Assembly: GCF_000019805.1 (NCBI RefSeq)
Contig: NC_010525.1
Coordinates: 1,352,618-1,416,617 of the forward strand
DNA: 64,000 nt
Direction: 5' to 3'
Origin: Pyrobaculum neutrophilum V24Sta
Lineage (GTDB): Archaea > Thermoproteota > Thermoprotei > Thermoproteales > Thermoproteaceae
Shown here: piece by piece, positions 12,028-28,942 of the stretch
Position numbering within the stretch: position 1 is the stretch's first letter
Layout of the letters: each line of letters begins with the position of its first letter
Position numbers and translations under genes: made by a program
The notes under the pieces: generated by a model
What the model saw: the letters and a program-made list of their open reading frames with translations, nothing else
What the model was told of the DNA's origin: nothing
Databases searched by the model: none

Positions 12028-12081
12028 CTCAGCCAGCTGCCACCTCTTCACGAGTCGTAAATGGTCGGGCTCATCACTTAT
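12025..12081 (-). ncRNA. Box C/D guide sRNA candidate antisense to dsbA-like 3' end
   Basis: Read on the minus strand: C box GTGATGA (12077-12071), C' box GTGAAGA (12051-12045), a 12-nt D guide ggtggcagctgg (12044-12033) and D box CTGA (12032-12029). The C-to-D span is 49 nt, the size of archaeal C/D RNAs that guide 2'-O-methylation. The D' box is not clear. It overlaps the last bases of the upstream CDS and the pelota TATA region. The rRNA or tRNA target was not identified. Confidence 0.55.
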
Positions 12082-27864: not shown

Positions 27865-27916
27865 CGTCCAACTAAAGGTTGTATATAAAAATATGTTCAC
27901 CGCCTATCCGCCGCTG

Positions 27917-27974
27917 TGCTTCAGCGATCGGTCTCTCGTTCACAGTTCGCCAGACCGTACATCTCATCACGACA
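27917..27974 (-). ncRNA. Box C/D guide sRNA
   Basis: The clearest C/D RNA in the window. Minus strand: C GTGATGA (27970-27964), D' guide gatgtacggt (27963-27954), D' CTGG (27953-27950), 6-nt spacer, C' GTGAACG (27943-27937), D guide agagaccgatcg (27936-27925), D CTGA (27924-27921). The TATA at 27990-28000 lies 25 bp upstream of the C box. It lies in the non-coding gap between the CBS gene and serA. Targets (rRNA or tRNA) not identified. Confidence 0.75.
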
Positions 27975-27989
27975 TGGACAAGTGTAAAC

Positions 27990-28000
27990 ATTTATAAGAC
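27990..28000. promoter_or_regulatory. TATA box shared by the C/D sRNA (left) and serA (right)
   Basis: catttataaga, centred near 27995, is 25 bp from the predicted sRNA start (about 27970) and 24 bp from the serA ATG (28019). Confidence 0.6.
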
Positions 28001-28018
28001 AATCTAATGGGCGCCCTA

Positions 28019-28942
28019 ATGTCGGCCCTTGTGGCAGACAGCGTAGACCCGTTAATTAGGGAGCGGCTCGAGAGACGCGGAATAAGGGTGGATATGCGGC
28101 CGGGCATCAGCAGAGAAGAGCTCCTATCTATCATAAAGAACTACAATATCTTGATTTTCAGAGGCAGGCTGAAGATAGACAGAGAGGTGATAGACGCAGG
28201 TACAAACCTGAAGATCCTCGCGAGATACGGCGTAGGGCTTGACAACGTGGACGTGGAGTACGCGGTTAAGAGAGGTCTCGTCGTAGTCTCAGCGCCGAAT
28301 GCGCCAACCCAAAGCGTCGCCGAGCTCACAATAGGTCTCATGTTGGCGGTTGCCCGGAGGATCCCGCTACTCAGCGGAAAGGTGAAAGGCGGAGAGTGGC
28401 CCAAGGGGAGGTACGTGGGGGTTGAGCTGGGAGGCAAAACCCTCGGCGTTGTGGGATTCGGCAGAATCGGCAGAGCGGTGGCGCATATAGCGCGAGGCCT
28501 CGGCATGAGGATAGTGGCAAGCGACGTGATAGACGTAAGCTCTGAGGTGGAAAAACTCGGGGGCCGACAGCTTCCTCTTGAGGAGCTCCTCAAGACCAGC
28601 GACGTGGTTACCGTCCACGTCCCCCTAACCCCCAACACCTATAAGCTGATAAACGCCGACAGGATCGCGTTGTTGAAAGACGGCGCGATCTTCGTGAACA
28701 CGAGCAGAGGCGAGGTTGTTGACTACGAGGCCCTATACCGCCACATCGACAGGCTATGGGGTGTGGGGTTGGACGTTCTCCCAGAGGAACCCCCCAAAAG
28801 CCCCTACCTAAGGGAGCTGGTGGCGCATGAAAAGGTGGTGGTGACTCCACACGTGGGCTCTGAGACGTATGAGGCCATGAGGAGACTCGCCGAGGAGCTA
28901 GCCCTCAACATAGAAGAGGTAATCTCGAGGATCAAGCTATGA
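28019..28942 (+). CDS. serA: D-3-phosphoglycerate dehydrogenase
   Basis: 307-residue short-form (no ACT domain) D-isomer-specific 2-hydroxyacid dehydrogenase: NAD fold GVVGFGRIG (143-151), catalytic Arg in NTSRGEVVD, Glu in LPEEPP and His in VTPHVGS. The operon with a class V aminotransferase supports serine synthesis from 3-phosphoglycerate, although glyoxylate or hydroxypyruvate reductase cannot be excluded. ATG at 28019 (not 28007) fits the TATA spacing. Overlaps the next gene by 4 bp. Confidence 0.88.
   Translation: MSALVADSVDPLIRERLERRGIRVDMRPGISREELLSIIKNYNILIFRGRLKIDREVIDAGTNLKILARYGVGLDNVDVEYAVKRGLVVVSAPNAPTQSVAELTIGLMLAVARRIPLLSGKVKGGEWPKGRYVGVELGGKTLGVVGFGRIGRAVAHIARGLGMRIVASDVIDVSSEVEKLGGRQLPLEELLKTSDVVTVHVPLTPNTYKLINADRIALLKDGAIFVNTSRGEVVDYEALYRHIDRLWGVGLDVLPEEPPKSPYLRELVAHEKVVVTPHVGSETYEAMRRLAEELALNIEEVISRIKL

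Follow-up and report, generated by a model that had tools for sequence, protein, structure and literature searches.

In the window (the whole 64,000-nt stretch of DNA that was analysed, lying in a genome composed of a single contig of 1,769,823 bp) we found a C/D box guide sRNA of the sR30 family which, in our judgement, is most likely transcribed from the only TATA octamer of the gap separating it from a serA-like gene, the same octamer being also part of the serA promoter. Judging from its boxes and their conservation, the sRNA at 27921-27970 of the minus strand is real and is divergently oriented with respect to serA; it belongs to a known guide-RNA family, already known from a close relative, and occupies a conserved place. 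The anatomy, conservation, target pairing and promoter-element positions of its locus were obtained by computation, and the relevant features are the following:

27921..27970, minus strand: C/D box guide sRNA, C-to-D core of 50 nt, orthologue of P. calidifontis sR30 (from 16-genome conservation, model search and rRNA targets)
27964..27970, minus strand: C box GTGATGA, with TGATGA invariant in 16/16 genomes
27951..27963, minus strand: D′ guide GATGTACGGTCTG, 13 nt
27947..27950, minus strand: D′ box GCGA, reassigned
27937..27943, minus strand: C′ box GTGAACG, with TGA invariant in the 16-genome alignment
27925..27936, minus strand: D guide AGAGACCGATCG, 12 nt
27921..27924, minus strand: D box CTGA, invariant in 16/16 genomes
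27991..27998, no strand assigned: TATA octamer, candidate shared TATA, TTTATAAG on the plus and CTTATAAA on the minus strand
27985..28000, plus strand: serA BRE-TATA core promoter TAAACATTTATAAGAC, score 11.7, ending 18 nt before the ATG
27988..28003, minus strand: octamer site read for the sRNA, ATTGTCTTATAAATGT, score -0.5, ending 17 nt before the C box
28019..28942, plus strand: serA-like D-2-hydroxyacid dehydrogenase (Pfam PF00389/PF02826), predicted to be leaderless from its promoter-to-ATG spacing

Boxes and size of the sRNA are those of archaeal C/D sRNAs (C box RTGATGA, D box CTGA, degenerate C′ and D′ boxes, about 50-70 nt). A preliminary description of this DNA had already placed a C/D sRNA on the minus strand with its C box at 27970, together with a C′ box GTGAACG and a D box CTGA with a 12-nt guide, and all these elements were confirmed, the boxes being conserved in 16/16 genomes. 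Its D′ box, CTGG with a 10-nt guide, had to be abandoned: in the alignment of the 16 orthologues the corresponding columns read CTGG, CTAG, CAGC, CGTG, CTTC, CTAC or CTGC, and the motif NNGA, 3 nt past them, is retained in 14/16. A D′ box requires GA, which makes the sheared G-A pairs of the kink-turn. Since the CTGG columns vary freely and NNGA is retained, we considered GCGA (27950-27947) as the D′ box, with a guide of 13 nt upstream and a spacer ACT between it and the C′ box on the minus strand; with this reassignment the guides are mostly 12-13 nt on both sides. The sRNA of genome G011, which is outside the 16-orthologue alignment, again has NNGA, in the form ACGA. A search of Rfam returned nothing at the gathering score for the sRNA, and sR28 was rejected as its identity, its E-value of 0.37 being at chance level; a plasmid search gave no match.

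The D guide forms 11 pairs (one of them G-U) with L091 4815-4826, the 23S rRNA segment AGGTCGGTCTCT. As expected of an archaeal C/D guide complementary to rRNA, its fifth position from the D box is paired; the predicted site is L091 C4819, which by alignment is E. coli C2606. The scan of the rRNAs that the preliminary description had proposed for the guides thus gave a 23S target for the D guide, and a match as good was reached by 0/200 shuffles. As for the D′ guide, when drawn with CTGG its best rRNA pairing was reached by 190/200 shuffles. With the reassigned box, its core ACGGTCTG pairs with the 23S segment CAGACCGT (L091 4799-4806), and the predicted site is L091 C4803, corresponding to E. 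coli position 2590. By itself, over all rRNA, this pairing was equalled by 79/200 shuffles, i.e. it is not above chance, and the putative D′ target would rest on its adjacency to the D target, on the conserved core and on the published sR30.

Dennis et al. 2015 (PMC4644070) report as targets of P. calidifontis sR30 C2880, equivalent to E. coli C2606, and, 16 nt upstream of it, C2864. The sRNA of the window, from the same genus, has the same D and D′ targets (C2606 and 2590 in E. coli numbering) and was assigned to the sR30 family on this ground, the likeness being judged by the published target positions. P. calidifontis is another species, and the D′ guide of the window is 13 nt long, where most others have 12, and differs in its 5′ half. 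In that paper, methylation at C2606 is predicted in all six thermophilic archaea studied, and Thermoproteus tenax sR152 has a D guide aimed at the same conserved 23S position; no rRNA complementarity is reported there for the D′ guide of sR152, whereas the g3 genomes of our set still carry the ACGGTCT core. The guide anatomy is in this way corrected and the RNA placed in a known family whose target is the 23S position equivalent to C2606.

With rRNA targets identified, the reading of the minus-strand element as a guide RNA is supported, and from its complementarities the sRNA probably guides methylation of the large ribosomal RNA. Precisely, binding of the sRNA to L7Ae, Nop5 and fibrillarin is predicted; its D guide would direct 2′-O-methylation of 23S rRNA to the position equivalent to E. 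coli C2606 and its D′ guide to that equivalent to 2590, the two sites being on different strands of helix 93 and close to the peptidyl-transferase centre. We also observed that the D and D′ guides are mutually complementary (CGGTCT/AGACCG, within 27925-27963 of the window), as would follow from each guide targeting one of the two strands of a single rRNA helix. A guide-to-guide helix as a structural element of the sRNA was rejected, the stability of the fold being no better than that of shuffles (z -0.64).

To score promoters, we used a matrix produced from 30 tRNA promoters of the same genome (consensus AAAAG CTTATAAA CCC), which end 16-20 nt before the tRNA; sites with a score > = 10 occur about 0.5 times per kb per strand. 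The preliminary description had set 49 bp between the C box and a serA ATG at 28019, with a TATA at 27995 in the middle serving both genes. The ATG was confirmed: it coincides with the aligned start in the relatives, the product matches 2-hydroxyacid dehydrogenase families and the closest named matches are from Pyrobaculum. Between C box and ATG lie 48 nt, and a TATA-like TTTATAAG is indeed present in the middle, at 27991-27998; it is the only TATA octamer of the gap and is midway between the predicted starts at about 27970 and 28019. Read in the direction of the sRNA, the octamer CTTATAAA has the maximal tRNA-type TATA score, reached at 3e-5 of the window positions; AT-palindromic TATA octamers are common, with 56 window positions at the threshold used. 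The end of the sRNA-side site, 17 nt from the C box, is inside the range of the tRNA promoters. No BRE was recognisable on the sRNA side, where the BRE positions read ATTGT and are not A-rich. Hence, of the claim that one TATA serves both genes, the geometry stood (18 nt to the ATG, 17 nt to the C box), and the sRNA side was found to be without BRE; a shared TATA is the best reading of this geometry, plausible though unproven.

The transcription of the sRNA, the rRNA methylation and the shared use of the TATA are inferred. The sRNA would be transcribed leftward from the only TATA octamer of the 48-bp gap, and the same octamer would, together with a BRE, make up the core promoter of serA, whose mRNA is predicted to be leaderless. 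On a pseudo-symmetric octamer TBP could seat in either direction, and initiations of the sRNA and of serA would therefore be mutually exclusive on each DNA molecule. A same-strand neighbour cannot supply the sRNA transcript because upstream there is only serA, which is antisense.

A TATA-like motif at < = 50 nt upstream is present in about 20% of the genes for archaeal C/D sRNAs (reviewed in PMC7994747). In Pyrococcus furiosus, sense and antisense transcription from a single TATA, with starts 49 bp apart, was obtained in vitro (PMC6640164). Common to those promoters and to the gap of the window is a single TATA halfway between divergent starts that are separated by about 49-50 bp. They differ in that the reverse product in P. 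furiosus is mostly presumed to be a non-functional antisense RNA, while here it is a guide RNA; in that BREs are on both sides at most of the P. furiosus promoters, while here the sRNA side has none that is recognisable; and in that transcription in both directions was obtained there in vitro, while for the gap of the window it is predicted from the sequence. The gap may act as a bidirectional promoter, yet we did not class it as one because it lacks the BRE-TATA-BRE arrangement (sRNA-side score -0.5).

A close serA homologue was found by protein search in 16/19 genomes of the family Thermoproteaceae, and the sRNA, by a sequence-model search with strong E-values, in 17/19. Wherever the close serA homologue is present (16/16 genomes), the sRNA directly precedes it in divergent orientation, which is far above chance, and this linkage spans two genera. 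The spacing between serA promoter and ATG is almost constant (17-20 nt in 16 genomes). The gap from the C box to the conserved ATG is 45-56 nt in 9/16 genomes, host included; it is 38 nt in G001, which cannot share a TATA with such spacing, 79 nt in G006 and 86-88 nt in five g3 genomes. In the six long-gap genomes the sRNA has an AT-rich element of its own at the appropriate distance, in most cases with a low matrix score, and the claim of one TATA for both genes does not extend to these relatives. The serA tree, weakly supported, is compatible with the long gap of G006 being either kept or regained. Both the absence of a BRE on the sRNA side and the differences between the relatives weigh against considering the gap as a dedicated bidirectional promoter. 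The genomes form a small natural series, with gaps of 38-88 nt and either one TATA element or two, suited to direct tests of promoter sharing in vitro.

The separate sRNA element of G006 and of the five g3 genomes is also what would be expected if, in the AT-rich block of the window, the serA BRE-TATA were overlapped by a distinct and weaker core promoter for the sRNA, each having its own TBP register, a reading that we consider rather unlikely. It is favoured as well by some short-gap relatives with an sRNA site in another register, e.g. ATAAGTATTTTAGTTT at 17 nt in G008, and by the second sRNA family of G008, with two overlapping opposed full core promoters (scores 17.2 and 16.7). In the window, however, there is just one other site in the sRNA direction (27995-27980, score 5.3), and its end is 9 nt from the C box; this is too close, since transcription would start inside the C box.

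Most C/D sRNAs of archaea lack a dedicated promoter and are released by processing of longer transcripts (PMC7994747). The sRNA could in this case be excised from a longer antisense transcript starting inside or beyond serA, the TATA serving serA only. A similar condition is seen in G011, where the 3′ end of a different ORF (nucleoside-phosphorylase-like, identified by eye) contains the sRNA, the TGA stop codon of this ORF being in the D box (L155 1501-1550). We consider excision improbable for the window, since over the approximately 400 bp upstream (27996-28400) no other sRNA-strand site > 4 bits was found at a workable distance, and since the position divergent to serA is kept in 16/16 genomes. 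Very unlikely, in spite of a linkage conserved in two genera, is a co-regulation of sRNA and serA through the shared element, tying translation capacity to serine synthesis: G011 has the sRNA and no serA match, so that the sRNA is independent of serA, other sRNAs of the genome adjoin unrelated genes in a like arrangement, and common use of a TATA needs by itself no regulation.

The reading that we prefer, a single octamer used by both genes, may apply to other loci. A strict C/D pattern gave 16 other C/D candidates in the genome, and the reversed control pattern gave 0. For two of the candidates, L180 and L171, a single TATA lies halfway to the start of a divergent gene; they are given here with a weaker case, L178:

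G000:C1:974043-974090: L180, divergent from a solute-binding-protein gene, ATG 46 nt away, one TATA block midway
G000:C1:11580: L171, divergent from a nuclease-like gene, GTG 51 nt away
G000:C1:644014: L178, divergent from a cobalamin adenosyltransferase gene

The L180 pairing is present in eight genomes of the genus (relatives L187-L193), with start distances of 43-63 nt, the starts being judged by reading frame. Tentatively, there may be in the compact Pyrobaculum genomes a recurrent class in which a divergent guide-RNA gene and a leaderless protein gene compete for the TBP site of one TATA, left by the shortening of a two-promoter spacer; if so, rRNA-modification RNAs and metabolic mRNAs would be rivals for the same TBP site. 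For L171 and L178, we observed that the divergent start is 45-51 nt away, with a single AT element between.

The gene following serA encodes a class-V aminotransferase. Downstream of the sRNA are:

27861-27004, minus strand: HTH-CBS gene (Pfam)
27879..27896, minus strand: distinct promoter-like sites scoring 6.3 and 9.8, located 17-19 nt upstream of the HTH-CBS ATG

A second strong match of the sRNA was observed in G008 (G008:C5:22219-22267, L162), which may stem from duplication or contamination. Finally, the window contains three more matches of the C/D pattern:

12029-12076, minus strand: L182
14505-14553, minus strand: L183
58635-58682, plus strand: L184
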